NCBI GenBank assembly: GCA_014871385.1
Contig: CM026422.1
Coordinates: 20,450,177-20,514,176, forward strand
Source: Ceratodon purpureus
Taxonomy: Eukaryota > Streptophyta > Bryopsida > Pseudoditrichales > Ditrichaceae
DNA: 64,000 nt
Reading direction: 5' to 3'
In this document: positions 22,861 through 53,509 of the stretch, piece after piece
How the letters are laid out: every line of letters begins with the position of its first letter
Position numbering within the stretch: position 1 is the first letter of the stretch
Position numbers and translations under genes: made by a program
The notes under the pieces: generated by a model
Told to the model about the DNA's origin: nothing
The model's database searches: none
Seen by the model: only the letters and a program-made list of their open reading frames with translations

Positions 22861-22899
22861 CCCATACCCGACCCAACCCCTCCTCTGCACGTGCCACAT

Positions 22900-23495: not shown

Positions 23496-24567
23496 ATGTT
23501 GGAGTTGTCGGACACGGAGATTCCGGCCTCTTTTGGTACGTTGTTGGTTTTGTTTCTTCGGTTTCTGTATGGTGGTTGATGGGTTGTGTGTGCTGGGGTT
23601 TGTCGTAGATGGGGTTAGACATGGCGGCGGTGGATTTTCTTTCTTTTGCTTGTGTCGTGCGTGTTCTTAGATGCCGGAGTTTGGTTATTCAGGGGTTTGT
23701 ATGTTTTGTATGGTTTGCGTTTTTTGTTGGGTTGGGGTTTGATGGATGAAGTAGCTTTTGATATTGAAAGAATTAAGTAGTTTACACGTGGTTGGTGGAT
23801 GCCACATGTGCGTGTGTGGGTATATGTTACATGTGTACGTTGTCTGCAGGGTTTGGATGTGTTGTATGTGTTCTTATTGTCTACCCTAGCTTTTGATGTA
23901 TGTAGATTGTGGTTTTGATAAAGGGTTTGATGGTTGTTTGATGTGCAGATCCATTCGCCGAGGCGAATGTTGAGGATAGCGGGGTAGGCTCGAAAGGAAG
24001 TGGCTATGTGCATGTCAGGGTGCAGCAGAGGAATGGACGAAAGAGCTTGACGACCGTTCAAGGGCTGAAGAAGGAGTTCAACTACAACAAGATTCTCAAG
24101 GATCTGAAGAAGGAGTTCTGTTGCAACGGTGTTGTTGTGCAAGATCCCGAACTGGGTCAGGTCATCCAGCTCCAGGGTGACCAGCGGAAGAATGTCTCGA
24201 ATTTCCTCGTTCAGGTATTGTAACTGTCGGATGGTAGAGATGCCTTGCCAGACGTGTCAGGATTCAGCTCCAGGTCATGTAATCCAGGAGAGAACCTCTT
24301 ACTCTGATGTGGGTTTTATTCTGATCTACTGGTTTATAAATTGTTAGGTTTTTTTGTCTAGAAGACGGGTTTGTTGTATATCTTTTCTGTTGTACTTTCA
24401 GTTTGGTTTTGTTATTGATTCACTGAAAGTTCCACTGATGTTGCGATTTCATAATTGTCTGTACAGCTTTCTTAATAGTCCGAGTTCATAACTAATTGTA
24501 ATTCTCGAATTTTTGTCTGCAGGCTGGAATTGTGAAGAAGGACCTCATCAAGATTCACGGGTTTTAG
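23496..24567 (+). CDS. eIF1: translation initiation factor eIF1 (SUI1)
   Basis: Binds the 40S subunit and guards start-codon selection in the 43S pre-initiation complex. Three exons: 23496-23535, 23949-24214, 24523-24567, all GT-AG, 351 nt in total, 116 residues; plant eIF1 is about 113. The protein reads SFDPFAEANVEDSG, then the SUI1 core VRVQQRNGRKSLTTVQGL, KKEFCCNGVVVQD and QVIQLQGDQRKNV, and ends DLIKIHGF, the usual plant terminus. The chosen ATG gives MLELSDTEIPASF, aligned with the normal family start. The frame stays open upstream to an ATG at 23178, which would add 106 residues absent from the family, so that stretch is more likely 5' leader. Confidence 0.96.
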
Positions 24568-26907
24568 GCCAGCGGCTCCAGTATTATGCGGTGGCTGGGT
24601 TGACTTTCGGATATAAATGCCTGGGAGGGCACCGCCGTGGTTGTAGTGTGACGTTTTTCTATATGGGAGGGTGATGAAGATCCCTGTAGGGTGTAGACAA
24701 TCGTGGTAGAGAACTGGGGTACATCGGATAGTCTTCATGATTGCTCATTCTTGTGGGTATGCTTTGGTGTGTAGTGAAGCTGGGCGGGTAGTGAGTGTGG
24801 GGTTCGGTACTATGAACCGAGAACAATGGTGTTTTGTCCCTATTATGAATCTATTTATCGGTTACTGTTAAATTGTTTGTCCTACTGTTTCTTGCCTTGG
24901 GTATGATGGTTTTGTGTCCCCAAGGCAAGTGTGGTATTGGTTGAATCCCTCTGGAGCATCTAATGACAATGAACCTACTCGTCGCAACGATTTAAATGTT
25001 TAATGATGTCTACTATCTGATGTATCCGTCTCTTGTACACGTCATCCAAAAGGTTCAGAAGATGATCAACTTTTCACTGCGGTTTTTTTACTGAATTCTA
25101 GTATATCCACATCTGCTGGTTTCCTCTATACTTGCATTTATCGCCTTGAGGTTTCGTTCGTCCCAAAGTGGGTGTACTTGGAGGTATGTTGGCCGTCTCT
25201 GTGTTAGTTCGTAACTAGGATTCTTCTCAGTCACGAGAAAGGCACTTGTCGGAAGAAGTTCTGTATTCCTAGGGATTATGAATGCCTTTTCGAAGATAGA
25301 TTATTTTGAGCATCACCTTGTTACATTCTCCAGAGTTGTACCTGTTAACAACTAACAATTATGTATGATACGCTTGCAGACAACTTGTTGAAGGATAATT
25401 CGTTTCGTGTATCCTCCCACCTAGGCTAGATTCAAGAGATTAATAGTAGATTCTATTTTATCACACGTAATCAACTTACTTATGTATTGATCCACTTGGA
25501 AGGAAAGGGGTCATGCAAAATCTGCTGAAATGATTGGAGTGGTTGAATCATACTTTTGAATGTGGAGAAGTGCAATACAAGTTGACTATAATCCTGTGTC
25601 CATAGCACCTTCTATGCGTGACACATGCTAATGTTCGGGACATGTAGTGCTTGCTGCCTGGTAATTGACCGCCCAACTTGCAATGTACTAGACTTGTCCC
25701 CACATGAATGCCACTCAAAGAAAGAAGAACAACTGCTGATTTGTACAGAAAGTAGGCTTTATGTGCACTTCTAAAAAGCCCCTTGTTGTACAATACATAA
25801 AGCATTATTGTGATGTGAATGTTGTATCATCCATATCATGTCAATGTTATTCTTTATTCTTAAAAACAAAAATACATTCCAAGTTAGGAATAAATAGACA
25901 ATTTCATTAAAGCATAGGTAGCATTCCCCTTGGCAGTGGCCACTTCCTTGTTCCAAGAAACTTTATAGCCATCCTATATCTGTCTCCTCAAGTAAAATAC
26001 TAGTTGCAAGCAACCTTCAAGGTCTTTTATATTTACATTACAATAATTAACATTTCTTTTGAAAATAATTGATTCCATACACAATTTTGAGAGCTGAAAA
26101 TTGGATATGGTCTCATTTCAACGATGATTGCTAACTTTTTTATTTTAGATAGAACTTAAGACTTTTAAATTGTACATTATTTTGAGTCAATAATCATCGA
26201 GTAACAATTAATAAGGAAATAAAACCAAATTTTGAAATAGTACTTGTATGTCCGAATTACTAAGAATTGAAAAATATGCATAGTTTACTTAAAAATAATC
26301 AAACATGGTACAATATAGAGTGGTAATATGCTTGAACTAGTGTTGAAATGTTAGTGATATTGACGGTTGAAATATGAATTATTACACATTTTATTTTGTC
26401 ATCATACACAATGAGTAGTTCCATAAACATCAAAGTTACCCTCTAGACATTTACCTTCATTAAAATCATCTTTAAAGTTACATTGTATTTTAAAAAATAC
26501 CAAAAAAATATTTAAAAATAGTTGGGAGGTTGGAAGAATTTGATGGTCTTATTATATTTGGTGTGTTTGAGTTTATTGGTTGCTTATCTTAAACAAACTA
26601 GTTTTGCACTCGTTTCATCCTTTGAAAACTAGATTTCTTTGAGTGTAAAGACTATCAAGCTTTTATACATTGAACATAAAGAGGCCACTCAATTCTTCCA
26701 TCCATATTTAATACTAGCGATTCAATACTTTTTACCGGCGGTTGTATATTTATTATATTAAGGGGTATTTGAAAATAAATACGATACACTGAATTGTAAA
26801 TAAAATAAAAATAAATGTGTATATAAATACATAAGAAATAATTATATTTTAAATTATTGTAAGATATACAAAGATTTACATGTATATTGTATTCTTATTA
26901 TAAAACA
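24568..26907. other. eIF1 3' side and AT-rich spacer
   Basis: The first few hundred bases are likely eIF1 3' UTR. Beyond about 25 kb only chance ORFs are seen. Confidence 0.5.
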
Positions 26908-26935
26908 ACTAGTGGGACCCGTGCCGTTGAGCACG
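26908..26935 (-). mobile_element. possible Helitron 3' terminus
   Basis: Read on the minus strand: a 5-bp stem hairpin (CGTGC, loop, GCACG; 26920-26935), seven bases, then CTAG followed by T (26912-26908). A GC hairpin just before CTRR with insertion before T is the 3' signature of Helitrons. The element would extend to higher coordinates. Its 5' TC end was not located, and no Rep/helicase is visible. Confidence 0.4.
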
Positions 26936-27345
26936 TTGTCATTAGATTAATACTAAGGACTTTTAGAAACTCCAAATAATTTTATTAAAAAAAATTTAAA
27001 ATTAAATATGAAGTATATTATATCCATTCCTCTGTTATGGATTTTGAATTCACGTCGACAGTACTGGTTTATTGTACATGGTTGTCTTTGTTGAATCCCA
27101 TGAACATATACTGCATGGTGTATATACCCTAGTGAACTTAATTACAGGTTCATGTCTATAATGTTGGCTTACAAGACTGTGTTCAGTTAGCAGTCTAACA
27201 AATCGTTTTACCTTAGGTCACCAGAAGTGTGTGCAAGCACAATTGACTTACCTCTAGAATGAAGAGGCTTCCTTCCTTTCTGCAACTGAGTCAATTGTGC
27301 CCACATTTCCCCCAAATTCTTTTCAATCATGACCAATAACTTAGG

Positions 27346-27561
27346 TTACCGAATTTTAGTCTCTAAGTGTCTGGCTACACTTGGAAAGTCGTAGCGTGGA
27401 GGCGGATCAGGTAGCACTGCAAGAATGTGTCGCCTTCTTTCTCCATCAAACCGTTCGCAACTGCACCCTGCGCGCCACCACTGCCGGCACATGCTAAAGG
27501 TGTGAGTTGTCTCCTCGACGGATTCCGGCGTGGAACCGTCGAGTGAGACATCCATGCTCAT
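27346..27561 (-). other. unrecognised 71-codon ORF
   Basis: Less AT-rich than its surroundings, with a composition (CRQWWRAGCSC, then ILAVLPDPPPRY) that looks like real or formerly real coding sequence. I recognise no family. It lies on the same strand as, and inside the expected body of, the possible Helitron ending at 26908, so a captured gene fragment is conceivable. No splice structure supported. Confidence 0.25.
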
Positions 27562-28613
27562 TTGTATAATAGATTTAAAATGAGCTAGTAAGATTAGGTC
27601 TAATCAAAACTTGTGGTATCTAAGTCAAATTGGATTCCTTTACAAATTACTCTATTATCTTATACACTTCAACTTCTTCTTCACAATTTCACTAAAGTTT
27701 AAATTAATAAAAAATAGATAAAAGATCTTGCAAGAGGCAGCAATTGCTATCTGTTGCTGTAATGTTTTTTGACTGTTGAACTTCAACCTACAAGACTTGC
27801 TTGTACAATTGGGTACAAGATGAATAGAAATTATAGCCTCCTTTTATATTGAAACAAAGTTTGTCCATATGACGTCAAAAAAATTTGTGAGATTAATTAG
27901 CTATTATTTAGAAGCAACATTTCTACTCTATTAGTCTAAATTTATGAGCTTTTGTGGTTAGATTTTGTAAATTAATTGTCAATGCAGCGACTTGATTTAT
28001 GAAGAATTTATTTTTTGTGCTGATAAAGCTCCATCAACATGGCATCGTTCCACTATGCGTTATAAAATTTTGTTGCATTTCAAACATGTATTGTCAATGG
28101 CCTTCCATGTATTTCTTGGGAACTCATCCGATTGATTTGAATGAATCTCGACTTGCTTCTCCACAATATTTAGGCTTCAATTGTCTTACTCTTTATGTTC
28201 ATCAATTTTTTTTTTCTATTGTTTTTAATTGCATGCCTCGTTCAACACAATCAATAAATTATTTATGCATTCTTATGTCTTAGCAAATTTTCTCTTACTA
28301 CTCTATGTTTGTAGCTTTGTGGTGTAAACAATCTTCCAAACGTAGGGGCTTATACTCTCCAACCATGCAAGTTCATGTTGGAGCCCTAATCAATGTGGAA
28401 TTATTGCCAATCTCCAATTGATTTTGCAATTGTAAATCTCACAGTCGCTATTATCTACATTGCCAATATTGATTGAAGCGTGTTGGCCTTTTCCACAGTA
28501 CCAATTCACTTTTTCCCATCTGTTGGTTTGAGTTTCGGATGCTTGATTATCCTCATGAGCTCACACTCATGAATGATGGTGCTCTAGTTCATGGTGGCGA
28601 ACTTACATAACGG

Positions 28614-28659
28614 TGGAGGATATTAAAAACTTAAATTGGAGGATATTAAAAACTTAAAT
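28614..28659. repeat. 23-bp perfect duplication
   Basis: Two adjacent copies of GGAGGATATTAAAAACTTAA plus ATT in a region (27600-29000) otherwise without a recognisable gene. Confidence 0.85.
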
Positions 28660-29061
28660 TGGCCTTCAAACTCAAAAGATTTCAATTTCGAGAGAGCTTA
28701 GGGAAATAGTAAAAGATCTACTGGCATCGGTTCTTGCAGATTTGAGTTCAATTTTTTAGAATTTGCTATTTGCTCGTACTGGACCAAAATCAATTAGGCG
28801 TTTTGGCGTTAGATCTGATACATATAAATCATCTTCATAATCATCGAGAATTTGCAAGAGTTCTTCAATCAAAATGTCATCTTGAGGGAATTAGTAAGCA
28901 ACGCTGGGCAGTGGGCAATCAAAGTAATACTCCAACTGCTTCTGTCCCATACTCCTTCACCTTGCAACTCAATGCTGTCTGGTCTTAATATTGTTCCACG
29001 GGGCCTCGCCAGCTGAACTTTCTAGAGTAGGAAAACATAATGGGTAAGGAACACTATCTTC

Positions 29062-33278
<4,217 letters not shown>

Positions 33279-33429
33279 GGCGATCGAGCTTGGGCGAAAC
33301 AGGAGTAAAACCAAACTTCACAAATGGTGGCTATGGCGATGCAGAGCTTGCAACACAGTCAATGAAGAGAGCTTCCCACACACACTCCCACGCACTACTC
33401 CTCTGATACCTATGCGGTACCCTGTACAT

Positions 33430-33600: not shown

Positions 33601-34884
33601 GTGAGAGTTGTGTGGGGTTGTTGGGGGAGGAGAGGAGTCTTTGTTGTGGGGAGGTATACGGTTATGTGTATACGGTTTGGGTATATGGAGGGGGATACGG
33701 TGGTCGTGTGATGTGATGACTTTGGTGGTATGTGAAGTTCAATTAATGGGATCGTGGGTTGTCTGTTGGAAGATGTGGGAAGACTGGGTTCTGGTTGGTG
33801 TGGAGAGTTGTGGAGAGTGGCCGGATCGGCATTAAGGTAGGCACATCCATATCCGTGACTGTTTCCATGGGCGTGACCTAGTTTAGTATTCATCAGCGTG
33901 GCTTTCAGTCCCATGACCGGCAACTTCCATAAAACGACGGTAATAGGGTTGTAAAGTAATGAGATAAAGTGCCCATGCGTGTGGAAATGGATGTACTCGT
34001 CCACGGTTTATATGTCATGATATTTTCATTGCACGAAATAATTAAGTGATTCAGAAGTTGGTTACTAGAAAGTTATCCACTGGTTTAAGGGGTAATGAAC
34101 ACAATTAAAGATGCAGTCTTCTCGGATTTTCTCATTCGTGGAGACAGATATGGGGACCAGGTTGGCGGTTATGAGAGATTATATACACTTTCTTATTAAC
34201 AGGCAATGACGGCGTTAGAAGCATGTTCCCTGTATAAGACGATTGCCTAGCCATTGAGGGCTGCGAAAGTTTGTGGTTGAATTTTTGTTTCGAAGTTGAG
34301 TTGAGAGTGAGTTTTCTACATGTGATCATGGGGTCTGAAGGGGTAGAGAGGGAGTCCTACTGTGGAGGAAGCGAGCCATGGGCACCTGAACTACAGGCTT
34401 ATGGAATTCCGGAGGAAGGTGGTTGGTCCCAATCTGAAGATTGCTACATTGAATCACAAGAGAGTCATGAAAATGTAGAGAGAGTTGCACGTCCTGTTGC
34501 GTTACATGCAGGTGCGTGGAGAAGAACAGGGACATCGGGCAACACTACAACAAATCCAGCCCAATGTGACTAGATGTAAACCGGCCCATGTGACCGCCTA
34601 GTCACATCAGTCATTAGTTCAGTCAAACATCGGTCATAATAGGGTCCAGTCATGGACTAGTCACGGACTAGTCATATATCCAGTCATTTTTTTGAGGACC
34701 TGGGTGGGAACGTCTTTGGGAACGAGCCATATGTTCCCCTGCGATGTTCCCATACTCATGCATTGAGTGCTTACTATCTGCAGTCATACTAACATAGTCA
34801 TATGGTATTGGTCATAGATTCTTGTATGACTCCGTTGCGTAATGGATGTCATTAGAGTGACTGCATGTAGTCCTAAAGTCTTTA

Positions 34885-35940
34885 AACTTACTAATCTCAC
34901 TCATGGATTTCAATGAAATGACTAGACAAAATCTTCTACTTGTGGGGCCCTAATTGATAAGTGCTGTGAAATTGGAGTACGTCCATAATCTTCATTTGCA
35001 CGTACATAGTAGAAAAGTAGTTTCACATAATTAGAATCACTAGATATTTAGAATTCAACTGTAAAAAATGAATACGTATTTGAATGAAAGTCACCAAATA
35101 TTATGACTCCACTCTCTCTAGCTTCCTACTGCTTTCCAGATGCATGAAAATTGCTTGTACTAATAATCATGCTATAAATTTCCTTCGCTTACAATTGAAC
35201 CATTATTAGTTGCCTTCCTATATTACTTTGAGGTGTTGAGCTAATTGCCAACATAATGTAGTCGTTATGACTGTCATGTAGATAGTTTCCTTTACTTATA
35301 TTGGTCATTGGTTTCTGTATGACTGAGTGTTGTAATAAAGTTGATTTGGGTGACCATATGTAGTCATGTAGTCTTTATTTAAATTTGGAATAATCTTTAT
35401 ATAAATATGTCTAAGATATTTTTCAATTTGTAAAAGAATTAGTAGTAGATTATGTAAATCAAGAACTGAAGAACATTTGGAATTTCCTTAATGAGTTCAA
35501 GGTACTTGCACTCCAACTATGTTTTAGGTGAATCTGAGGATTTCAAATTCATTTCATTACTATAAGCATGCATTATCTGTTGGTTTAGATATTATGTTTT
35601 TTTAATTAATTACGTTTGATAGTTAAACGTAAAATAAACATATGGTCGACGAATAGTAGTTACATACTTTTAATTTGTAGAATGTACTACCTTCTCATAG
35701 TCCTTTTTAAATGACTGTTAGTAGTTTGACCTTGTATAATAATTTATTATTGTTCTTATATTTATGGAATGACATATTACTAATTGGACTAGCACAAATT
35801 ATATAAAATAAAACCTCTATCTAAAGGTTTAGGGTTCCAAATTCAATTTCCCATTTGAAGATCATGACATAACTAGCACTTTGATTCATAATACATATAA
35901 CCAGTATGTAGGCCCACCCAAAACTAACCATATAAAAACT
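34885..35940. other. AT-rich left arm of the CACTA element
   Basis: Between the left subterminal array and the captured gene block. No coding signal. Scattered GTCAT motifs continue to about 35370. Confidence 0.6.
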
Positions 35941-35949
35941 AACTTACAA

Positions 35950-36300
35950 TAGTTGCGAAGTCAGCTCACACACCCAGCGCATCGCGGCACCTCCCTGCAG
36001 ATCTCCGTCTCCGCCATCGCCACCGATCGCGCCACCTTGCGATTGGGGTCGGAGTGCTTTCGTCACCATGGTATGCTCCCGTTTCCGCTCCTCTTCGTGG
36101 CGTCTCTTTCCGTGGAGTATTACGGAAGTTCGACTTCTCTGTCGTTAGGGTTTGGGGTTTTGTCCGGGGTTCTATGTCGATGCTCTGTGTTTTTGGCTTC
36201 AGCTCCGGGCGTTTTTGCGGTGTTGCATGCATGGTGGTTGTGCTCTTTTGGGTTTGACGGGTGGGTCGCAGCAGTGATGCATCAAGTACAGCCAGTGCTT
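35950..36300 (+). other. possible captured 5' leader
   Basis: GC-richer block at the start of the captured region. An ATG at 36068 is followed directly by a donor-like GTATG at 36071. This resembles the end of a plant first exon and the start of an intron. No protein can be recognised. A 25-bp duplication (ACCATCGACTACATCT) follows at about 36337-36385. Confidence 0.3.
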
Positions 36301-36428
36301 CAGAAGATTGGACAATTGATTTTACTCAGACGGCAGAACCATCGACTACATCTCTGAGTGGAACCATCGACTACATCTGTGAGTGGAACTACAATGTTAT
36401 GCTAATGCTATCATCTTGTGATGTACAG

Positions 36429-36517
36429 ATTTGTGATATGGTAGCAATTGCACGCCTTATCAATGCCACACTTGTAATCCCAGAATTAGATCAGGGCTCT
36501 TTTTGGCAAGACTCCAG
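36429..36517 (+). pseudogene. captured O-fucosyltransferase exon
   Basis: A single 89-nt exon bordered by TGTACAG and GTGAGA. It encodes [20 protein letters not shown] and then DQGSFWQDS, the conserved N-terminal motif of plant GT106-family protein O-fucosyltransferases. The next exon expected in the family is absent; SEC16 sequence follows about 100 bp later. It lies inside the CACTA element, so it is a transduplicated fragment and not a working gene. Confidence 0.85.
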
Positions 36518-36623
36518 GTGAGATGCAAGCTAATTTTATACTCAGAGACTCGGTACACGTATGAAGTAACCGGAGTGAAGAGGGATGCGGTGGTCGTGAC
36601 TGACGGTTTGTTTACTGTTATAG

Positions 36624-38111
36624 GTAGCAGCCGCGCATTTGTGTTATCTAGTTGCGGATGCGAATTTAGAGCCCTACTCTGGAAACGCAAGACTGTGTCT
36701 GATTGGTGCGGATCATGTGAAGAATCCGCGGACATTTGTGACAGCGGAAGCTATTCAGGTGGGCAGGCTTACTTTTGGGGATTGTTCGATTTAGTGCATA
36801 TGTGTGGGTGGTGTATTCCCGGTCCGGATGCACACCGACCTTGGGCCTGGTATTCTTTATTGGCAGCGATGTGTCCAGACATCTCGAGGATGACGAATGT
36901 TTGTGTGGTCTGTTGTTACCGTTGTTGGTCCTCCCCTCGAGGGCAGACCTCAGCGAGGACGAGGTGCGAAGTGAGATTTTGGCGATAGAGATTGCGATGG
37001 GCGATTTTGGTATGTACTAGTGTGCGTGCAGCGGGAGAGGTCAGAGGGTTGTGTGGGTGAGTTTTCTGACTCTTGTAGTTTGTGTTGATCAGAGGACGGA
37101 GATTTATGAGTATGCGAAAGTGTTGGGCAACCCTCAGAGCATTCTCCTATCGTTTCAACCGTACAAGCTGGTGTATGCTGAGATGCTGGTGGAGTGCGGA
37201 AATACAAGAGATGCACTCAAGTACGTGGCAGTGTGATCATGATTTGTGTGCTGCCTTGCGAGACTTTTGCCGCTGAACGAGAGTATTTCTCAGCGGCAAG
37301 AGTCGATGGAGGAGGGGAAAGTGTAGAATGCCATGAATGTGATGTGCAGTAAGATGAGCGGATTCATTAGCCTGTGATTTAAATCTGACATGAATTGTAG
37401 AGTTTCTGATCGTTCCCTCTTTATCATGTGGTTGGATGAACAGATACTGTAAAACAGTGCTGCAAACGTTGAAGTCGGCAATGCGGAGTCCTGAGGTAGA
37501 GGTTTGTAAGGCGCTCGCGACAAGTCTGGAAGAGAGGATCCGTTCGCACATGCAGGTGCGTTTAAGCATATGTGGACTCCCTTGTTAATCTGCTTGTCGC
37601 ATTTTGCATTTGCATGTGTGTCGACCAGGTGGGAATGGTGTGAGTGGTCGCGTTGGTTTTCTTTTCTGTACCTGCTCAGGTCCTTGGTTTGTTTCAAGGT
37701 TTCAGTGACAAATCGGACCATGTTGAATCTGTCGTACTTGAATGATTTGGAGCGTTTCTCTTGAGGGTATTCGTACGAGCTTTCCGGACAGATGGAATCC
37801 GACGAGAGACTTAGTACGAGGGTTTCATGGGGTGTAGATTGCTGTTGTGGCAAGGAATGTTAGGAAGTGGCCGTTTTGCTTGGCAAGCCATCATGTTTGA
37901 CGGTGATTGGGGTTTTGTGTCGGCAGGACGGGTCCGGATCAAAGTTGGCACCTGGGAAGTTGGTGAACAAGATCAAGGGCACGATGGACTGGGGCATCTC
38001 GAAGTTGATTGGAGGCCCTCTTCCAAGTGCTCCAGCGGCAGATTTGTGGTCCTGCTCCGTGGTCCTGCTCGCAGCCAGTCGGAGCCGGACTTTGGCAGGA
38101 ATGCGAAGCAG
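36624..38111 (+). pseudogene. captured SEC16 fragment with introns
   Basis: SEC16 organises COPII export sites on the ER. Four consecutive exons of its conserved central region are present: 36624-36758 (AAHLCYLVADANLEPYSG, LCLIGADH), 37093-37220 (RTEIYEYAKVLGNPQSILL, FQPYKLVYAEML), 37444-37555 (YCKTVLQTLKS, SLEERIRSHMQ) and 37927-38111 (SKLAPGKLVNKIKG, ISKLIGGPLPS). The first three join in frame for 125 codons with canonical splice borders and no stop. Introns are retained, so the capture was from genomic DNA and not from a cDNA. The N-terminal two thirds of SEC16 are missing. Weaker exon-like pieces continue to about 38990 but I cannot assign them. Confidence 0.9.
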
Positions 38112-39001
38112 GTACTGTTTGGACTGGGGAACTTTTGATTCTTTGCTGGAGGGAAGTCTGGAGTGCATGATGTTTGTGCTTGCATGGTTGTGTTTTGATG
38201 AGTCGTGCTGATAAACATGCATCGGAAAAATGTTGTTAGGGAGAGGCAGACGGGCATGCGGGGTTATCTCCAAGGGCAGCTGGATTACGCCTGGCGGGAC
38301 TTGGTCGGTTGGGCTCCAACCTTCTGCAGAGGGCCAGCGGGCTGTGGGGCTCCAACAAGAAAGAGGTGCGAAAGCAGTGTTTGTATGTGTCTTGAATGTT
38401 GGTATGGTTGTTTGAAGTCGCAGGAGTGGGTGGTCCCGGGTGCAATTTTGGGTGGTTCTGGAAGTAGATCTCGTAACAGGGCGCAGAGCGAGTTGATTGT
38501 AATGCATGAGCATGGGGAAGCCAGAACCGCAGCGAAATTGCTGTGGGTAAGAATGCCTTGATTTGCTGAAGGTGTGGTCATGGGGAGTGGATTATCTGAA
38601 CGAGAGGTGTGTGGTTGTATGATGGGCCAGGCGAAGTTGGGGGACGCAAATAAATTTTATTACGACGCCAATAGTTTCAGAACTCACCTCTTCTGCTATA
38701 ACCCATGACAGTGAAGGTTCACATTTGAATCCCTGCAGTAAACATGTAGAACTTGACTTCCTGTGAAAGTCTGTTTTGTTGCTTCAGGTCAGCTGAGCAG
38801 GTGCTACCTTTTCTGCTGGAACATCATACAATCAGACAAGAGTTTTCTGTACCCGCCCATCCCATTTTGCTTAAACTTACGACCTTAACATGCGTTGCTG
38901 CAGGATGTTGAGATTGAGAAGATCCGGACAGCAAGTCGAGTTGTGAACTTCACCAACACCGTCATCACAATGACTTCAAACGTAGGAGAGATAGTGACAT
39001 C

Positions 39002-39082
39002 AATCTAGATCTTATGTAGATTAGGTGTACAATCTAGATTTGATGTAGATTAGATGTAGATTAGATGTACAATCTAGATATG
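39002..39082. repeat. AATCTAGAT/GTAGATTAG repeats
   Basis: About three degenerate copies of a unit around ACAATCTAGATTTGATGTAG, just inside the right arm of the CACTA element and outside the captured gene block. Confidence 0.8.
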
Positions 39083-39249
39083 TTGTAGATTATGAAATGT
39101 AAAAATGTAAATTTAAAAATATATTTAATCTAATTCCACATCTTTCGAATCAACATGTACTCCTAGATTACACCACATCTATAAATTGTATCCCTAGATT
39201 CATCACATCTACTGAATCAACCATATATTCTTAGATTCCATCGTGTCTG

Positions 39250-39395
39250 TAGAGTCATATATGGTTGACTATCCTTAGTCAGCTATACCGTATTGGTGAC
39301 TGAAGAGTCATATATGGTTGACTATACTTTGTCACCTATACCATATTGGTGACTAAGTATAGTTAACAATATATGACTCTATAGAGTCAGATTTT
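39250..39395. repeat. 53-bp subterminal repeats of the CACTA element
   Basis: Two direct copies (from 39251 and 39304) beginning AGAGTCATATATGGTTGACT and containing TATTGGTGACT, followed by an inverted partial copy (ATATATGACTCTATAGAGTC). They are part of the AGTCA-rich right subterminal zone. Confidence 0.85.
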
Positions 39396-42243
39396 CCCAA
39401 GTCCCAGAGCAGGTCCCTAGTCGAGGTCCCAAAACACCATGGGAACGCAGTATCGGGAACAAAAACAGGCCGATGTGACCGCTAGTCAGATTGTCCGGAG
39501 CGACTGGTTCAAAATGACTGGAAACAGTATAAGTCACATTTTGGTTTATGCCCTATTACAGTCATAAAACCCAGTCACATTGGGCTGGATTTGTTGTAGT
39601 GCAATTTGGTGGGTGGGCGAAGGAGCGGATTTGCACGAGAGGCAAATGCATCTGAAAGGAGCAGGTGCGGGCAAGGCTTTGCATCACTGCTGCCGCCTAT
39701 ACCAGGTACGTTACAATATCCATCAGTTACCGATCGAGTTTCAATTCATTAACTGTGAGATGGCTCTGTAGAGATGCTCCGAAGCAGAGATGAGCAGGTG
39801 GCAAATCAACTCCAGCCGATCCCGGTGACTGCAGTATCATCGATAATGTATCTCGGTTAACGATGGCAGTAGGGGTAGAAGTTAATCTCAGCCTATGTAC
39901 GTCATTAGTAATTACTTGCATGCTAGATCAGACATGGAAGAATAATTTTTGGATTCCATGTAAAACTTCACTTACACAGTCAATGTGCCTGCAGGATTCG
40001 GCACTGCAGGTGCGACGCTTCATCGGCCAGCGACCCGCGCTGCTAGCGTCTACGGAGTCACACCGAGGGCGCAGGCTGGAACTGGCCAGCAGCCGCTTGC
40101 CGAAGACGTAGCAGCAGGCGCTGGATTTGCACGAGGCTCACACGTCGACGAGGTACCTACAGTGCCACCGGACAGTCAGCGATCAGCATTTGGAGTGCCA
40201 AGCGGGCATGCAAGCAGATCTCGAAAACGCACACGCCTATGGACGGACAGTCAGCTCGAAGCAGCTATTGCGGCAATTGACGCAGGAAACAGAATTTCTA
40301 CTGTTGCAAGGGACTTCGACATACCAGCTTCGTCACTCAGGGACCACATCAATGGAAGAACTCTGCAGCGGAAAAAGGGTCGGCAAGGTGTCTTAACTGT
40401 GGAAGAAGAAACCGCTTTGGTCCATTGGATTCTTGATATGCAGGACCATGCTCATCCAATATCAGTCATGGAGTTAAAAAGCAAAGTCACCGAAATTACA
40501 CAGGAGCGTTGGACGCCCTTCAGGGACGGTATACCTGGACGTGGGTGGCTTAAGTGGTTTAGACATCGTCATCCAGAGTTGACGCTCAGATCTGCACATG
40601 GTTTAGAAGAGGGACGGGCAAGAGCTCTGAATCCTAGTAATGTTGCCTCATTCTACAAAAACCTTGAAGAAGCATACGACCGCTACAGATATCCTGCCGC
40701 CTATATCTGGAATGCAGACGAATCAGGGGCACAAGCAGGCAAGAACGGAGGGGGGACTCTGGTCTTTGCTCGACGAGGCACTAGATCTGTCCACACAACA
40801 GTGCCAAACAGCAGAGAACATTTAACGGTCTTGTCATGCGTGAACGCAGCAGGTGAGCACATTCCAAATTTTTATATTTTCAAAGGCAAACGTAAACAAC
40901 GGAATTATATAGCTAGATGTGAACCTAAGGCATGCATGGCTATGCAACCGAACGGCTGGATGACAGCATTCTTGTTTTCAGCCTGGATCTCACACTTCAT
41001 AGAGATTGTCAAAGAAAGGTACGGAATATCAGAGAGCAATAGGCACCTTCTTATCTTAGACGGTCACGGATCACATGTCACACTTGAGGTGGTGCAGAAG
41101 GCTAAGCATGAAGGCCTCGACATCATCACATTGCCTAGCCATACAAGCCATAGGTTGCAACCTCTTGATGTTAGTATCTTCAAACCTTTCAAAGTAGCAT
41201 TTCGACAATACCGGGATAAGTGGACTATCCAAAACAAAGGTCGTGGAGCTCAAAAAGAAGAGCTGGCAGAGTGGGTATCACTAGGGTTACGAAAAGCACT
41301 CACACCTGAAAAAATTGTGAAAGGATTTGCCGCCACAGGGATATGGCCCCTACGCCCCACAGCCATGGACAGTCACATGCAACCCAGCGAATGCTTCGCA
41401 GAGCCTCTGGAAGAAGGCGACGATGATTCAGGATTTGACTCCGACTTGCAAGTCAACGAACAGGCCCAGTCGAGGTCTTATCAGATTCAGCCCGGCGTAT
41501 CAGGCACTGCCGAGGGCGCAGGCACCGCCTAGGGCGTATCAGGCACCGCAGGTGCATGCAGGTTGTATCACCACGGCACTGCAGGCCAAGCCGAGCCAAG
41601 CTACCTGCATGGCGATGAAACCCAAGAGATAGGCCACAGTGAGATGGGCGGGTTGCTCGATGTGGCAGGAACTGAAACGAATGCGGCACAATGCAGTGAG
41701 ATGGGCGAGGGTGAGCAGGTGATACCTGAGACGCAGCCACCAACACAATATTTTGTGCAATCAGAGAGTGACAATTCCACAGAATTCGGTGAAGACACAG
41801 AGTCTGAAGGAGAGGCACCGCCAAGTATCGAGCCACGAAATCTTTTCCCACTACCGCACCTGCAACGATCCAGAAGAACTCGAGCACAAGGTGAGCCACT
41901 TATTGATTATTCAAAGTCGATTCTCATGACCTCCGAAGAATATATAGCTGCAATGAAAGAGAAGGTAGCTAAAAGAGAAGCTGTGGCAAAAGAGCGAGAG
42001 GCACGCAAGAACCAAGCAGAGCAGAAAAAAATTCAACGTGAGGAGTCCAAAGCAAGGAAAGAAGCTGAGAAGGCACGGAAAGAAGCGGAGAGGGTCTTAC
42101 GACGCATCCAAGCAGAGCGGAAGAAGGCGGACAGGGAGCGTGAGAGGGCAAGGCGAGCTGCTGAGCAAGCTCGGAAGCGGCAGGAAGCGGAGGCGAGAAA
42201 GCGCAGCAGAGTCGACGGTGGTCCAACCATTCCGAGCTACTGA

Positions 42244-45200
42244 AGGTGAGCTGGTTAAGAGGAGTGCGGGGCGAGGAGCGGGAAGTAGGGAAATCGGCGC
42301 GGGAGGGAGGCTTGAGGCTGGCAACGGTCAGTGGCCGAGGCGGGAGACTCGTGATCAGTAGAGTTGGTGTCGGCTTGGCGCGGGCCAGGCAGGCATCGCT
42401 CATAGGGACCATTGCTGTCTCGTATGGGCCCAGCTCCTTTTGCTTTTTAGAGCTCCCACCCACTGATGCCCATGCGTTTCTTGACGGTTTTTAGTACACA
42501 CACTATTACCCATGCATGTAGCAGAGGACTATTTCACACTTTCTCTGACGCAGATTTAGAGTTGATGTAGTTTGGAATTTTGAACCACTCCAACACGTTT
42601 TGTAGTTGTGTATTTAACTTTTTTGGGGACTACCTAGATTGGTATAGTGATACTTAAATTCCAGTAAAAGCTACATGTCCACTCACTTTTAGAGGCTGCT
42701 ACAGACAACCATGGATTTATGTTGAAATCGCACTTTGAAAATTTCCAGTGATTACATGCTTGTGAGTGAAGCTTCCAAACTTATATCAATATTTTTCATT
42801 TCTTTTTGCTAATCCAACAATATTACTTTCATTCTTGAAAAGTCACTTTCACTACCCTAAAATTCTTATTTCTGTGGTTATGGGTGCTGCTACCTTAGAT
42901 GGATTGATGCAGTACGCTGCCAGCCCTTTTTTTTTCATTTTTCATGAAGTGCTGAAGTGGCGATATAAAATGTTATAGAAGTGCTGCATATTTCAACATT
43001 CATCCACATATTGGATAGAAAATATCACATTAGAAGATATCACATATTAATAATTTTATATTCATTCATAATCTGGCTATTTCATTCAAGATATTATTTT
43101 AGTTTAAAGTTTTTTGGCAACAAACTTTATGGTTTTTGGCCATTTTTTAGCCAAACTATTTTTTTCTAGTGCAATATGGCTTTTTTCGCCCAAAAAAAAA
43201 GGGCTGGTCGCTGTAGAGGTTTGGAGTAGAACTAGAGTGGGTGTCCAAGTTAAAGAGCATTGATTCATTATTGTACCTTTCGGTAAAGGATTATTAGGGG
43301 GGGTTTAGTTGGTCAAAGAGTTTGACGTATTCACACCACATATTATAATACCTCTAAAATTATATGTCGTAAGGCAACAAGGAATAAAATGAAGAAACTA
43401 TTTAACTTCTCAGAAGAAATTATCTCAAAGTACTTTAAACCTCATTTTAATCTTAGAAAATATTCATTCTTCATGTCATTAAATGCAAATTGTTTATCAC
43501 GTGTTAATTGAATAGAACAACCAATTGTTTACACCACCCTATTAATAATGATATATTCAATTTAGAGTAAATTATTTTTGCAAAGACCATTGATTTGTTA
43601 TATTTCTGCAAGTTTGTGGAATTTAAAACTTCAAATAAAGAATCAATAAAGAACCTTAATTAGAGTGACATGAAGAAAATGGGTAGAAATGAAGATATCA
43701 TTGAAAACGGAAGCATGTCTTAAATAAAAAAGACATTTCTTCTTTTTTCCAAAATTATATTTAAAGAAGATAAGCGTGTATAAGCACCTTCTCTATATTA
43801 CATTATGGACATTGTATAGTATATAAATTTATTTATTTTTAAATTTTTATAACTTAAAAAATAGCCATATTGTCTTATCATAATGTGATATGAATTACAA
43901 GTATAATTGAAAAATTCTTAACCCTTATCATATAGTATGATCAAGGTTTATTTGGAAAGTTAATTGAATGACTACAAAGTTTCAATATCCTTTCATATTA
44001 AAAGAATAAACCATAACAATGCCATGCTTACTTGTATTAAACTTAATAAAGTATATGTTGTCTTGTTACATTTTTCCACTTATTACCATCATTTTCATGT
44101 ACAAAAAAATAAAAATAAAAATAAAAAATAAAATATTCTTGCCTTAAACATTTGGAGTATTTAACTTATACATTTTTAGATATCATTGGAGTTAAAGTAA
44201 GGTTTTTACTTGAAATTTCAACACAAAAGAAGCGTCTTGATAAAAATAGAATTGTTGAGCGGATATTACATGAATGTACATAAAAGACTTAGTCTGTAGG
44301 CAAATGTATAAAAAGATTATATTTAAAAAATAATAATTTATAAGGAATAAAAAAAATCCGCACTCTACTTCTTTTTCATTGTTGACAATGATGGGGAGAT
44401 AGGAATGCTAGAAGTTTGTTTTGTTATAGGAACCTTTCTAAGAATGTGGAAAACTACATAAAAAACTATCACCATCTTTTAGGTGACAGTAAGCTCAAGT
44501 TGGTGGTTGAATTTGTTCCACAAGTCAAGACCTTACTCTTAGTGAATGATCACAATAGAAGACATTGTGAATGCTACTTCTCTTTAACTAGTCCGTTTAA
44601 TAAATTATTCTAAAATCCTGTTAAGCCACAAAGTATTTACATCAATGAGCCTTAAAAGTAACATGTCAAACATTGATAAGTGACGCTTTTACAATGTCCT
44701 TTACACATGTAATGGAGATGACAATAATCATATGATAATAATATATATTTTAAGAATCAACATACAAATAAAATACAACAAACATGTAAATATATATCTC
44801 ACATAATAAACACATTCCATGATCAATACTTAATTATAACAATCAATGTACTCTACATTCACCACTAACAACCTTGCGATTTTCAAAGCTTTATTCAAGA
44901 AGACCTTATTTTCCAAACTCACGCCCTATAAAAAGACTATTTCCAATATCTAGACTTTCAACTCTTCGAAAAAATCACGAAAATTTCAAAACATGATTCT
45001 GTGATATTTGAATCTGCAGCAGTGATAGGGAAAGATTGGGCCCCTATGGCCGCGGACTGTCTTCCTCCCTGAATGAGGCTCCCCTGTTTGCAGAAGTAAT
45101 GCCATACTCCTGCTGGCGATGGCGTCCCAGGAGACCTCTTAGGTTTCCATTGCCGAATGCGAGGTTGCCATGCGCTCATAGCTGACACGATCCGTGTCTC

Positions 45201-45385
45201 TTCCGGGCTTTGGCGGGATGCAATGGCGTTGCTGATGGAGCGTCTCTCGGATGGGAGTCTGCAGTGGACGATACATGGAATGGCGCTGCATTGAAGGCGT
45301 GGAGCTTTTGCGGGGGGTGTTTCGGAGACCATTGAGTGCTGCATTGTGCGGGTGCGCGATCGCGTTGGATTGCTAGGTTTTTGGC
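42244..45385. other. spacer between transposase gene and TON1
   Basis: 42244-42500 is GC-rich and probably the 3' side of the transposase gene. 42500-44950 is strongly AT-rich without coding signal. 44950-45385 is GC-richer and probably the TON1 promoter and leader. Confidence 0.5.
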
Positions 45386-45502
45386 TTGTTTTTAATCATT
45401 GGAGGCTTACCGCGGGGATTCGGTAGCCTGGTGAGGTGTTGGCATCGGGGCGTGGGGGTTGCTGAGGGCTGTGAGGAGGCGTGTCGTGTGCGAGGGGCAG
45501 CC

Positions 45503-48500
45503 ATGGACGACTATATGCGGGAGATGGTCGACCTCAAGACGCTGGTGACCAAAACCCTGGAGAAGCGGGGCGTGCTCGCCAGAATTCGAGTATGTCTGTT
45601 TCCTTGACCTATTTGTGCCAGTCCGCCGGAACAATTTTATAAGAAATGTTGCAATGCCGCATTCGACTTAAGAAATTCTGCAGTGTTTTAGGAAGGTTTA
45701 GGTCCCTAGGAGTATTTTATTAGCTGTGATGTGCGTTACAGCTAGTATACGCAAAACCGCATTGTATTGTAAAGTTGCCATTTTCGTGTTGCGCTCATTT
45801 TTCATGAACAGCAGCAATGGCCATATTTCCTCTCTTAAAATGTTACTGGGATATTGCCTGGAGAATCGGTATACTATGAATGGCAAGCCTTAACCAGATG
45901 GGATACATCCTGTACGTGAAGCATGAAGCTAGGGATTCAGATGGCTACTTTCATGCATTTACTGCTATGACGAGGGTGCACCCTTCATCTTGAGACTGAT
46001 ATTGCAATTAGACTCCTTCAAATGGCTGCCCGAGATGCCGCACCAGGAAATTATCGGGTGAAAGGACTAGCAAGTGATCTTAAGCAAATGACATGGAGGG
46101 ATTTTCACTTGAAGCAACCGGTGACAATGCTGGCATGTCTGGTCGCAACGTACAGGGCAGAACCCGACCCTAACACCCCGTCCGATCGAATAAAAGCACA
46201 GAAGGGATATTCAGCCCGACTGTGTACTGATTCTGGGGGACTGACAAGCTATTCGTAGTTGGGGTACAGTTCGTTTCGATGTGCTGACGTATGTTCCAAT
46301 GGATGCAGGCGGAGCTGCGCGCCAATGTCTTCCAGGCCATGGAAGAGCAAGACCATGAAGCAGAAAGCAATGGCTCGACGACATTTTCGATACTTGGAAC
46401 ATGCAACGAGCGGGCGAAGAAACTGCATACGTCCTCATCAGGCATGTTACATGATTCATTACGATGGCCTTAGTATGAGCATATCATTCCACAACACTCG
46501 TTTCACTCCTTGGTCTGAGGCCGGTTGTCGTGCGCCTAGTCGTTGTTATGTCAGTATTGATACTGGGACTGTGTATGGTGGTACAGATCATGTGGTTGTT
46601 TTGCTTGTTGCGAGTGGACTAATTCTGAGGGCGTGGTGGCGTTGATCGCCGCGGCGTTTTCTGTTGTGCGCGCACTGTTTGGTGGAGCCTATCTGATTGC
46701 CTGTTTATGATGAGCAGGCAAGTTGCTGATGGCATTGGTGTGCGAGTATATGGAGTGGTGCGAGTTGGATCACACGCTGAAGGTTTACATGCCGGAGCTG
46801 AACCAGGTATTTTCGTTGTCGACTGGCCGAAGAGGTTGCGGTAGGCGTGGGTTGAACATGCTGGAGTGTCGTTAGTGGGTCTCTTTCGTTTGCTGACAAA
46901 TCGCTCCCTTGGTGTACAGCCCAGGGCGTACAACAGAGCCGAACTAGTGGACATTCTGGGACTGGGTGGTGAGGCGAAGGCAGAGAGTCAGGATTCTCGG
47001 CCTCTGCTGCTGAGCATGGTGGAGTCTTTTCTGAATGAGGTAGGTGGAGCAGTTGGCGGTAGCGACTGTCTGCACAATGATTCGTTTCTGTATAGAAATG
47101 CGGTCATTTATCTTGGACGTGGAGGGGAGGTCCGTCTGAGCATGTGCGATGTTGGTGCAAGTTGTACTCGTCAGCCGCGGGTGTGGCCGAGGCTAATGCT
47201 GCGCGCAATGAATGTGTTGTCACTGTTAGTATGAAGGATTTCTACGAGGGAATTAGCTCTTCGAAACGTGATGGGGTTCTTCATCGGAAGTTTTCTACAC
47301 TATCGCTTACTTGGTGCCGATCCGAGTCATCGTCAGACTGTGAAGTGCTAATCGCAGGCGTAGAGGATAGATGTACGTGAGACGGGAGTTGAGGTATACT
47401 AGTTATCGGTGACGCTTTGGCAGGAGCGAGAGTAAGATCTTGGGTTCATTCGTCTCTCAAGTCATCAGCAGGCACGCTGGGGACTTTGGTGACCGAATTG
47501 AGCACTTTGTGATGTGTGCAGAAGAAGGACGGGTCAGTGACTGGAACTCCCGCACAATCCAAACAGTCACGACATGGGGCAGCAGGGGGGCCGAGGCAGT
47601 TTAGCGGGAACTCTTCCGGCGCTGTGGACCCTTCCGAAGCTGTGGAGGCACGTGTGTCGATGTCCAGGTACGATGACCGACCGAGTCTGTTTTAATAGGC
47701 TGCGTGTAGTGTCGTGGATTTCGTTTTCACAAACGTGTAGTCTCTTGCATTGATGGGTGGAGGGCGGTAGTGAACTGACATGCAGTGAGTTTGATTTATT
47801 GCAGCAAGAAGTCATCGGAAAAGCCCGTGGGAGGCTCGCATGATGGCTCATTTCAAGGCCGCCCTGAGGCAGAGCCAGTTGTAAGTCCCAGTTTTCTGTG
47901 CCCTGGATCTGTCACTGTGGAGCTTGTAGACGTCGACGGCATGTTTTTGGGTACATTGTGGTGCACATTTGGTTTGTTGTGATCTGTTGGTCCAATTTCT
48001 GCCGAGTCTTAAGTCCTGTTCTCTGCAGTTATAAGAAGGGTGCTGTGGCATGGACTAGTGGAACGGTCGCTGGTAGCGTGAGCTCCGTGAAGGGCTTCAC
48101 TACCGCGATCTTGAGACATGTCTGGAAATGATTCTAGAGTGTGTATGGGGCCTAGCAATGCCGTAGTGAATTGCTCTGTCTGTCTTTTCGGCTTTGTTGG
48201 CAGGTCCGAATCTGTAGTGTACGTGCTATGAACACGCCGGTAGTGGTTTGCCTGCGCACGGATTGTAAATCTGGCCAAAGCCTTGTTGGGGTATTCGTTC
48301 ACTCGAACAGCGGGCCGAGAGGTTGTGTAGGATTCTGTTTGACAGGCTGTCTCTTCACAATGGATCGTGGAGGCGCTCGTGACATTCATGTGGGGTTTGT
48401 TGAGGCCGAGTCTGAAAGGAATGAATTCCCGCCTCACATTGGGTTGTGATGCAATGCAGGGGGTTGCGAATGATGGGACGATGAGCCCAAGGGTTTCCGA

Positions 48501-50306
48501 TGACAGTCAGAAGCTGTATGAGAAGTCGTCGAATCGGGCCCAGGCACTGTTAGGTGACTTGCCACAGCATAGGCGGAGCAGCGGGTACGTGATTGCTTGA
48601 TGAGTTGAGATTGGGGTGGTACCAGAATCAGGTGTTTGTAGATGTCTCCGGATGTTTGTTTGAGGTTCCAAACGCTTTGTCGTTTTTGGTTGGCCTTACT
48701 GTTTTTGGTGCCTGGCAGGCTGCCAGGATTTAGTGGTATGTCACGGTCGGGTCTGAATACAAGAGGAAGCAACAACGGTTCGGCAAATGATCAACAGACC
48801 GGTGAGTGTGAGGCTCTGAGAGGGACTTTGCTTGGGGGTTCGGGGATCAGATATCGATGATGTAAAGTTTGGTTGGTTTGCAGGTTGTACTTGTGTGGTG
48901 TTCTTATGTAGCGAGCGTTTGTCTGATGTTAGTGACAGGGTGAAAACGTTGTACTGTTGGTGCAGTTGTGGGAGGTGTGGATGGCGGAGGATCGTATCCA
49001 AGAGGAGGCAGAGATAGGGACAATGATGGTAAGAGAAGAGAATACTCGTGGAGCGAGGAAGATGAGCCTCACGGCGGGAGTTCCGTGAACAGGAAGAACG
49101 AAGGTGGCTGGAGGGATCAGGATTATGACAATGTGTACTCAAACCCAGCAGCGCGTGCGGAGAAAGGGGACGGGAAGGGTCAAGTAGGTGAAGAGAGCTC
49201 GAGGTGAGTGTTGAGGGTACAGAGCCACATCGCGTTCGCGATTTTCGTAGTGCACGAAGTAGTGAAGAGGTCGTTTACTTGAACTTACCGGTTCACTCGT
49301 TTGGTGGCAGTCAAGCTAGAAGGGCCTCGTCTATGGAGAACTCGAGCAAGGCTCTGAGCAACCTTCATTTGGGTGAGTTGATCCGAGCCCCATGCCTGAT
49401 GGAAAAGTGCGAACAGGTTGTAGGGCAGTAGGTGGAGGATGTTGATGGCCTAGTTTGGGTCATGTTGCGCCCTCCAAAGGTAGGCGCAAGTGGTTTTGCG
49501 AACGTGTAGGCGTCTGGAGGCCTGTCCGTTTGGCTCGAACTGCGGTTGCTTGACCGACTCATGTTAGAGAAGTCTGCAAGCAGTTGGAGTCATGTCGCAG
49601 AGGGTCGATGGTGATGGATGGTGTCGTTGGGTAGCGTTGCGAGGAATGTTTTGCATGAACGTGGTGATTGTTGGCGAACGAGGGGATGGTTTTAATTAAC
49701 TCCGTTTGTGATCCAGCAGACGACGATAGCGCATCTGAGTTTGGCGGGCATCAGAGCTCTGGATCTAGGGGGACGCCGACAGGCCAACAATGGCAAGGAG
49801 CCCCGAGAGAGAATAGTGCGGCGGCAGCCAGGTGCGGTGGCAGTTTTCGACCTTTTCCTACGTAGTAGGCTGTTGTGTGGACATTGATGCAAAGGGGACA
49901 CGATTGGGCACATGTTACCGTGGTTAGGAAGGATGTTTCTTTGGTTGGCGTGTCGATGAGCACGCGGGTGATACTCACAGAGGGCGTCATTGCTCCCACT
50001 GGCTGGCGTCTGGGATGACGTGCAGTTGATGCATTGGCAGATGATGTTTTGTGGCAAGGATGTTGGGAGAAGCATCACGTTGATTGCCAAGCCGACAACA
50101 AGCGTTGGTAGATAACGTTGGCAGTACAGGTTGTGTCGTGATCTGGATGTGGCATGGTGACCAGGCAATGGAATGTATTGGCACGGTGCATGAGACATGA
50201 AATGTGAGACGTGTGTGTGTTTTGTGCAATGTGCAGCGCGGGGAGCAAGAAACAAGCTTCGGCGTACTTCTACAGCGACAGCGAAGAAGAAAATGCTCCA
50301 GAGTAA
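45503..50306 (+). CDS. TON1: TONNEAU1 (TON1/FOP-like) LisH protein
   Basis: Component of the TTP complex at the cell cortex, needed for cortical microtubule order and the preprophase band. Twelve exons: 45503-45589, 46309-46441, 46718-46806, 46920-47039, 47522-47667, 47805-47880, 48460-48584, 48719-48801, 48966-49203, 49311-49372, 49720-49831, 50237-50306; 1,341 nt, 446 residues, no stop. The start MDDYMREMVDLKTLVTKTL and LGTCNERAKKLHTSSSG are diagnostic. Exon 3 carries the LisH-like segment LLMALVCEYMEWCELDHTL (about residues 75-95). The tail is acidic and low-complexity (Gly/Ser/Arg-rich), ending YFYSDSEEENAPE. Arabidopsis TON1 is about 260 residues, so this copy is extended by nearly 190. 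Intron 2 has a GC donor (CAG|GCATGT). Exons 1-4 are secure; borders in the tail are inferred from phase and splice sites. Confidence 0.92.
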
Positions 50307-51385
50307 ACCTCTCCTGAATTTGACGCCTCCTGTAGTAGGTCGTTAACTTAGAGGTGTTCGTTAGGGGGCTGTAGCTGAAACGATGGCACCGCCACTGCGT
50401 GGATGGAGTGCGCACAGTGCCATGTATCTGTCGGCTGGTATGATTGCGTGCCCCAGGAGCCAACACTTCGATATACATGTCATGGTGGATAGGTAGCAGT
50501 GGTGGTTTCGCGCGTCTTATTAATTCCATTCTGGACGATTGGGTGTGTATGCGTGTACATACACTGAGGACATTTGGGGAGTGTAGCGTGACTCACTTGT
50601 GTTTGGAAGATGTGCATGGTTGTGGACAGAATCCCGGATGAGCGGTTCGAGTTCTGATGAATATGTGAAGATTGTACTTGGGCAAGATGGCTCTTTTCTG
50701 TTGGCGTCGTGTGGAATTAGCTGTTTTGCAGGGACTCAGAGGAGAGAAGTGGAGCCTGGAATGGATGTTGTGGGGTTGCGGTTGTAAACGAGAAAGTACT
50801 AGTTCTGGATCCTGGTAGCTGGGTGATGGTATGATTGAGTCTCTCTGGGCCGTCGAAGTTTTTGAGATGGTGTTTTTCTTGTTTCCACACAAATCAGCAT
50901 GACAGAAGCGACTCGGGTTTACTGTCTGGGTTTTGGTGCCTACTGTTTACCTCTACCGTATACTAGGCCATGTACTTGGCTTAGGTAGGCGCTGGCTTGT
51001 ATGCAAGCTGCAGGGAGTCCTGGAAAATTTCTGGTCTGATTTCATGATTTACGAGAAGCTGGGAGTACTATTTGATTTGGGTGCTTTCGGAAAGTTTTTG
51101 TCGAGGAACCTTTTGTTACGAGTGAGTTCTGGAATCAGGTCTGAACACTTCGATTTTAACGTACATGTTCTGCTACTTAGACAGTGCAAATGTAGGTGTT
51201 GACCAGAAATTTGACAACTCGTATATTCAATTGAGCACTTAAGTTTATGAGGATGCATATGTATGTGCAATCCAGAAACAACTTAATAATAAACAACAGG
51301 AGTTGCTTCGACGCCTTCGCAACAGATCGAAAGTCAATGTAACCAAAATTTTATTCCATTGCTAGTGGAGACTATGCTTTAACCA
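50307..51385. other. spacer downstream of TON1
   Basis: Chance ORFs only. The beginning is probably TON1 3' UTR. Confidence 0.5.
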
Positions 51386-51389
51386 CTTG

Positions 51390-52240
51390 CTATCCACCCT
51401 GGTCTACTTCTAATTTCCCACTCGCCTATGAGGGAAAATGTCTGCTGCAAAGGCTAGGCTGCATCGATCTTGGAAGGGATGTTCCATTTATCGTCGGAAT
51501 GCTTGGGCGGTGATCCCACATCAAGGCCACCATCGATGTTGAATCCAGGCGGCATCGGCACCAGCACTGGCACGACCTGCGCTGGGGCCGGTGGTGGCGG
51601 TGGTGGAATATTGGCTTGAAAACGATCTCCGTTACCTTGTGCCGCCATTGGGTTTGAACGAACTAACACAAGTTACTCACACGCGTTAGTAAACTTGGGA
51701 CCATCGTAATATGCCTGAATCCATGTATTCACCACCCTACTCTTCATAATACGTACTGATGGCTCAACATCTTCTACCAAGTGCTGAAACCAAGTGCCAT
51801 ACCATCCTTCTCAACAAATTTGATTAGCAACGACCAGAAATCATGAAACGGGACCCGAAGGGCAAGAAGCTGCAACACCGCATCTGAAATTCTAAACAAT
51901 CTTCGTGATTCTGAAATCAAAAACCTGCAACACTAACCGAACTTGAAAGTACACATTCGCCAGAAAGAAGAAATGACATAAAAGAAACATCATCCCTCCC
52001 GGAACGAGGAACCTATGATCGACACTCCAGCAGCTAAAGAAAGCACTACCTCAGAGAACCAAAGAAATAAAACGAAACGAGGAACAAGTCATTGACCAGA
52101 CACTATCATTGAACAACTTCAACAATTGGTCACCCAGAAGATGCAAACACCGCCTCATACAAGCGAAATAGTACATTGGTATGAGAAGACTTCCTATGGC
52201 ATGAGTAGCTGGACTTAAATATAAAGTGGTCTAAGAGCAA
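51390..52240 (-). pseudogene. gene fragment of unknown family, copy A
   Basis: The last exon (51669-51454) encodes a proline-rich segment (QANIPPPPPPAPAQVVPV) followed by a conserved C-terminus, FNIDGGLDVGSPPK and SKIDAA. Upstream coding-like stretches, on different frames, read VPFHDFWSLLIKFVEKDG (about 51850) and RIMKSRVVNTWIQAYYDG (about 51730), with stops and frame changes between them. I do not recognise the family. A second copy lies at about 57250-58215 on the opposite strand. Similarity extends through non-coding sequence on both sides of the last exon, so the two share a genomic origin. Confidence 0.6.
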
Positions 52241-53500: not shown

Positions 53501-53509
53501 TTCATAGAT

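Follow-up and report, generated by a model that had tools for sequence, protein, structure and literature searches.

Within the 64,000-nucleotide stretch of Ceratodon purpureus DNA analyzed here (the window; contig CM026422.1, positions 20,450,177 to 20,514,176), a 5059-bp element at 34543-39601 has the ends of a CACTA (En/Spm) transposon, contains exon-intron pieces of unrelated host genes, and apparently interrupts an exon of a transposase-type gene. The element is bounded by a perfect terminal inverted repeat (29 of 29 positions, zero mismatches), the left copy of which (CACTACAACAAATCCAGCCCAATGTGACT) occupies 34543-34571 on the + strand, whereas the right copy, with the same sequence, occupies 39573-39601 on the - strand. 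Both ends start with CACTACAA and read CACTACAACAAA..., in agreement over all 29 positions and with the CACTA start of the superfamily. When the window was searched with up to three mismatches allowed, the end sequence was found at these two places only, against 0.00 matches expected from 100 shuffles. Directly outside the ends lie two copies of CAA (34540-34542 on the left and 39602-39604 on the right), which is the 3-bp target-site duplication expected of the CACTA superfamily.

The regions just inside the ends are densely repetitive. AGTCA or TGACT occurs 13 times in the left 400 bp (34543-34942), with thinner copies of the motif continuing to about 35380, and 14 times in the right 400 bp (39202-39601), compared with simulated means of 1.43 and 1.35, respectively; none of 2000 first-order Markov sequences reached the observed counts. 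In the cargo, 5 copies were observed where 7.88 were expected, and among the 159 bins of 400 bp that make up the whole window, the two richest in the motif were the two ends of the element. Subterminal repeat arrays of the kind that characterize the CACTA superfamily are thus present at both ends. Two further features of the right zone are a tandem repeat of 53 bp (39243-39354) and a long, strong hairpin (39246-39300 / 39331-39385). The inverted ends and the AGTCA-rich arrays form the cis sequences of a CACTA (En/Spm) transposon, in which TnpA binds the subterminal repeats and TnpD binds the inverted ends, as described for the Tpn1 family (PMC5105172). In the left part of the element, a direct repeat (34806-34884 / 35299-35377, 72% over 79 nt) may have arisen when the subterminal array was duplicated long ago.

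The perfect 29-bp ends, the CAA duplicated at both borders, and the AGTCA-rich zones had all been claimed from the sequence-only reading of this locus, and all were borne out. It is barely conceivable that chance inverted repeats surround an ordinary pseudogene cluster here, or that the structure is an assembly artefact: no point was found in favor of either, and both are opposed by perfect ends with 0.00 expected, an exact 3-bp duplication, arrays confined to the two ends, a window without any N, and an empty site that can be restored in phase (see below).

A six-frame Pfam scan of the interior (34801-39302, E up to 1) found no recognizable CACTA transposase domain. It matched O-FucT and TPR_Sec16, both on the + strand, and gave a sub-threshold match to DUF2963 (0.087), and the three - frames had no match at all. 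The element therefore lacks a transposase domain of its own, as judged by Pfam, and carries host-gene coding DNA, as Pack-TYPE elements do. The recognized pieces all share one orientation, as the sequence-only reading had stated.

The O-fucosyltransferase piece is a single exon of 89 nt (36429-36517, + strand), flanked by AG and GT, that matches PF10250 at 9.5e-10 as a peptide query and at 8.6e-08 in the six-frame scan; no relative was found in the PDB at E up to 1. Upstream of it lies a 25-bp tandem duplication of 2.2 copies (36336-36389), and 36258-36400, tried as a further exon, matched no Pfam family. Downstream, a chimeric 'intron' of 106 bp (36518-36623, + strand) runs from the O-FucT donor site to a SEC16 acceptor and contains a capture breakpoint. 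The SEC16 fragment that follows (36624-38667, + strand) consists of six exons totaling 723 nt, located at 36624-36758, 37093-37220, 37444-37555, 37927-38111, 38240-38365, and 38631-38667, and was recognized from PF12931, GT-AG introns, and its frame; exon 6 is truncated by a capture breakpoint at its far end. The peptide of exons 1-4 matches PF12931 (TPR_Sec16) at 1.6e-30 over residues 2-155 of 164. No Pfam family was matched by a peptide running from the end of exon 4 through exons 5-6, and exons 5-6 were assigned to SEC16 because the frame continues without a stop and because this tail resembles the tails of plant SEC16 proteins. The introns are still in place, and therefore DNA rather than spliced RNA was captured. 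Two further candidate exons were rejected: 38433-38547 matched no Pfam family, and the intron at 36759-37092 matched only CcmB at 0.057, under the cut-off, which we take as chance.

The SEC16 fragment has decayed little. Exons 1-4 form one open frame until a 13-bp tandem duplication (38046-38070; second copy 12/13 identical) shifts it, after which a SEC16-like frame resumes, shifted, to the end. This duplication is the sole disablement, with zero stops in 240 codons, and the two observations together suggest that the copy is young or is decaying slowly. If all substitutions are equally frequent, 32.0 stops are expected per unit of divergence, which gives a 95% bound on unconstrained divergence of about 0.094, to be read as a rough bound and not as a date.

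Two more stretches of the interior may derive from other genes. At 38937-38987 (+ strand), a frame reading RVVNFTNTVITMTSNVG resembles a Clp/Hsp100 ATPase: a 21-residue query returned 27 different PDB sequences (E up to 10; best E-value 0.027), 26 of which bear the names ClpB, ClpC, Clp subunit, or Hsp101/Hsp104, with 8xon_S deposited under another name, whereas the reversed peptide, used as a control, returned none. The frame scored 13.3 bits against Pfam AAA_2, under the cut-off of 27. Although the match is weak, a Clp/Hsp100 gene is probably a third donor. The GC-rich stretch at 35957-36070 (+ strand) ends in CACCATG|gtatgc, with a GT donor adjoining the ATG, and can be read by eye as a captured 5' untranslated region (5'UTR) with a start codon; it may come from the 5' end of yet another, fourth donor gene and had no Pfam match in the six-frame scan. 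The two donor genes named by the sequence-only reading are both firm, and two is best taken as a minimum. Its exons also held, as one O-FucT exon and the four Pfam-backed SEC16 exons, while exons 5-6 stand on frame continuity and the likeness to plant SEC16 tails. The probable Clp piece, the 13-bp frameshift, and the interrupted transposase-type gene described below had not been part of that reading.

The shared + orientation, the usable splice sites, and the start-exon-like CACCATG|gt stretch upstream could also be explained by a working chimeric gene, in which a captured promoter and start exon would yield a spliced O-FucT/SEC16 transcript and a useful fusion protein; the exons of the soybean CACTA element Tgm-Express1 do become spliced into transcripts (PMC1947982). 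On the other hand, joining the ATG, the O-FucT exon, and SEC16 gives only 31 codons before a stop directly after the O-FucT exon, so that a fusion protein by such plain splicing is unlikely, and the SEC16 frame is itself broken by the 13-bp frameshift. We consider a working chimera of this kind very unlikely. Several donors in a single orientation would likewise fit a history in which the pieces were first gathered in a Helitron or Pack-MULE and then acquired by the CACTA element in one step. We judge this earlier assembly unlikely, given that the inverted-repeat search found no further long inverted repeat bounding the cargo; Helitron ends were not searched for.

The element apparently landed in the first exon of a transposase gene of pogo/Fot-like type (34328-42243, + strand), recognized from DDE_1, HTH_Tnp_Tc5, a joined frame, and a DD35D triad. 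Exon 1 comprises 34328-34542 and 39605-39705, with its ATG at 34328 and, at 39705, the splice donor CAG|GTACGT; exon 2 (39995-42243) begins after an acceptor at 39995 and is in phase with exon 1. In its interrupted state, the frame ends after 81 codons. When the empty site CAA-TTTGG was reconstructed by deleting the element and one CAA, so that 34542 was joined to 39605, one frame ran through the join without a stop for 150 codons, and the joined exon 1 spliced in phase into the frame carrying DDE_1 (2.9e-24) and HTH_Tnp_Tc5 (1.1e-08). The joined reading has 854 codons with one in-frame stop, at codon 618 (41530-41532). Exon 1 would on this basis have been in real use as an exon before it was interrupted.

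The catalytic residues of this gene are spaced D-113-D-35-D, and HTH_psq matched at 0.0033, under its cut-off. Fot and Fot-like pogo elements are described as having DD35D with HTH_Tnp_Tc5 and/or HTH_psq, and a spacing of 35 also lies inside the ranges given for Tigger and Lemi (PMC7386202). The gene thus has the DD35D triad and HTH_Tnp_Tc5 of Fot/Fot-like elements, with a spacing that does not single out Fot, and by catalytic spacing and domains a Fot-like assignment fits. In the account of PMC7386202, Lemi is the only one of the pogo families placed in land plants, which makes the placement of this near-whole gene in a tree of interest. No inverted pair of 20 nt or more brackets the gene, and the best TA-flanked inverted pair in the ranges tried (15/20) was unconvincing.

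Upstream of the interrupted gene, and pointing away from it, starts a ThiF-fold gene (31418-33278, - strand) with two exons recognized by Pfam at 5e-17 and 9.7e-05, which we take to be UBA5-like.

The ends, the target-site duplication, the subterminal arrays, the absence of a recognizable transposase domain, and the O-FucT and SEC16 exon-intron pieces together support the proposal of the sequence-only reading that 34543-39601 is a Pack-CACTA carrying captured exons of unrelated genes, and we hold it very probable that this is a non-autonomous CACTA (En/Spm) transposon of that type. The ends, with their inverted repeats and AGTCA-rich arrays, would serve as binding sites for a transposase made elsewhere, and the element would be moved in trans by TnpA/TnpD-like proteins, with a CACTA transposase of the TnpD type encoded at another locus. 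Its inside would have been replaced by genomic pieces, namely the O-FucT exon and roughly 2 kb of intron-containing SEC16, and would also have taken in a Clp/Hsp100 scrap (probably) and the 5' end of a fourth gene (possibly). A cut-and-paste jump into exon 1 of the pogo/Fot-like gene would then have duplicated CAA and truncated the gene product. Because its cis ends are intact, the element may still be remobilized by an autonomous partner.

Several observations weigh against this interpretation or limit it. A described route of capture is the fusion of two neighboring insertions with the intervening DNA (PMC13317346, PMC8903248), and no remnant of another CACTA end was found in the cargo, the only similarity being from subterminal zone to subterminal zone. 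In the absence of a leftover end, capture by two elements leaves no visible mark, which neither proves nor excludes the route. The splice sites of the five SEC16 introns are GT or AG in 10 of 10 cases, an agreement that is partly circular, since the exon bounds were chosen by eye on canonical splice sites. As regards the empty site, 13 slid versions of the join were compared: the 5 shifted by multiples of 3, which preserve the phase, remained open, and the remaining 8 ran into stops. The reconstruction therefore probes the phase and not the exact base. A second frame is also open across the join, for 76 codons. We regard the empty-site evidence as moderate. No other copy with these ends (up to three mismatches) was present in the 64-kb window, and the ends had 0 matches in IMG/VR, a collection in which none would be expected.

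Among the systems described, Tgm-Express1 is very similar in build, sharing membership of the CACTA superfamily, its size (5.7 kb versus 5.06 kb here), its content of unrelated host-gene pieces, and its insertion in a gene. It carries fragments of five host genes with exons and introns and sits in an intron of F3H, into whose transcripts its exons are spliced (PMC1947982). The two differ in the number of donors (five versus two firm here, with three or four likely), in the donor genes themselves, and in the insertion site (the F3H intron versus apparently an exon of a transposase-type gene); moreover, transcripts have been shown for Tgm-Express1, whereas the present element is known from its sequence alone. 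The Pack-CACTA elements of Arabidopsis and maize are likewise non-autonomous, with CACTACAA ends, a target-site duplication, and captured coding DNA, and capture from multiple loci is described, in maize chiefly for Pack-CACTA, where elements commonly combine DNA from more than one locus (PMC8903248). Those elements were identified in clusters of multiple copies whose sources are known (PMC8903248), whereas one copy was seen here. The Tpn1 family of the Japanese morning glory has 28-bp ends, 3-bp duplications, and subterminal repeats, and its non-autonomous members have had their inner part replaced by captured host genes; unlike here, hundreds of copies and transposase-bearing members are known, and the end sequence, judged without alignment, is apparently another (PMC5105172). 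In the literature, no paper was found that brought together three of the four terms SEC16, O-fucosyltransferase, CACTA, and Pack-TYPE, and for CACTA capture in mosses, lycophytes, or bryophytes, there was no title on the topic among the matches listed.

This element adds an example rather than a principle, being a clean case of a type of plant exon-shuffling element already known. Its value lies in showing exon capture in a small and legible form, with intact ends, introns kept, little decay, and a datable landing in a gene. Sibling elements with different cargo, should there be any, could reveal the presumed two-step order in which the pieces were captured. A more far-reaching scenario, in which the element would act as an exon-shuffling cassette that, with a captured promoter, 5'UTR, and start exon of its own, would at any landing site both produce O-FucT/SEC16/Clp chimeric RNAs and splice those exons into the host gene, and in which the target would in addition be a Fot-like pogo gene in a lineage where Lemi alone is reported, seems to us unlikely as a whole.

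Elsewhere in the window, AGTCA/TGACT also clusters at 7440-8337, where bins 7201 and 7601 are the third and fourth richest among the 159. This cluster ends ...TTTCTTGTAATG at 8336, which is CATTACAAGAAA on the - strand, and may represent the degraded end of an element from a different CACTA family; a partner end was looked for and none was found. Other repeats include a 111-bp unit in two copies at 99% (9167-9388) and a 182-bp unit in 1.8 copies at 98% (54446-54774), the latter a recent tandem duplication. An inverted duplication (51430-51654 / 57957-58193; 87% complementary over 126 and 75 nt) forms, with the further pieces 51754-51804 / 57707-57757 and 52076-52142 / 57315-57381, a large imperfect palindrome. 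Wider Pfam scans at E up to 0.01 covered 1-9902, 18001-27902, and 44901-52402 on the + strand and 1-9902, 18101-33302, 44901-50902, and 51001-58002 on the - strand, and gave no match for the palindrome region (51430-58193) in the - frames scanned. They identified SUI1 (24002-24214, + strand, 3.8e-23), a Ras/Rab-type GTPase with several exons (2995-3075, - strand, 2.8e-07), and a LisH motif (46732-46800, + strand, 1.2e-06), and these matches indicate that the window is gene-bearing host DNA.

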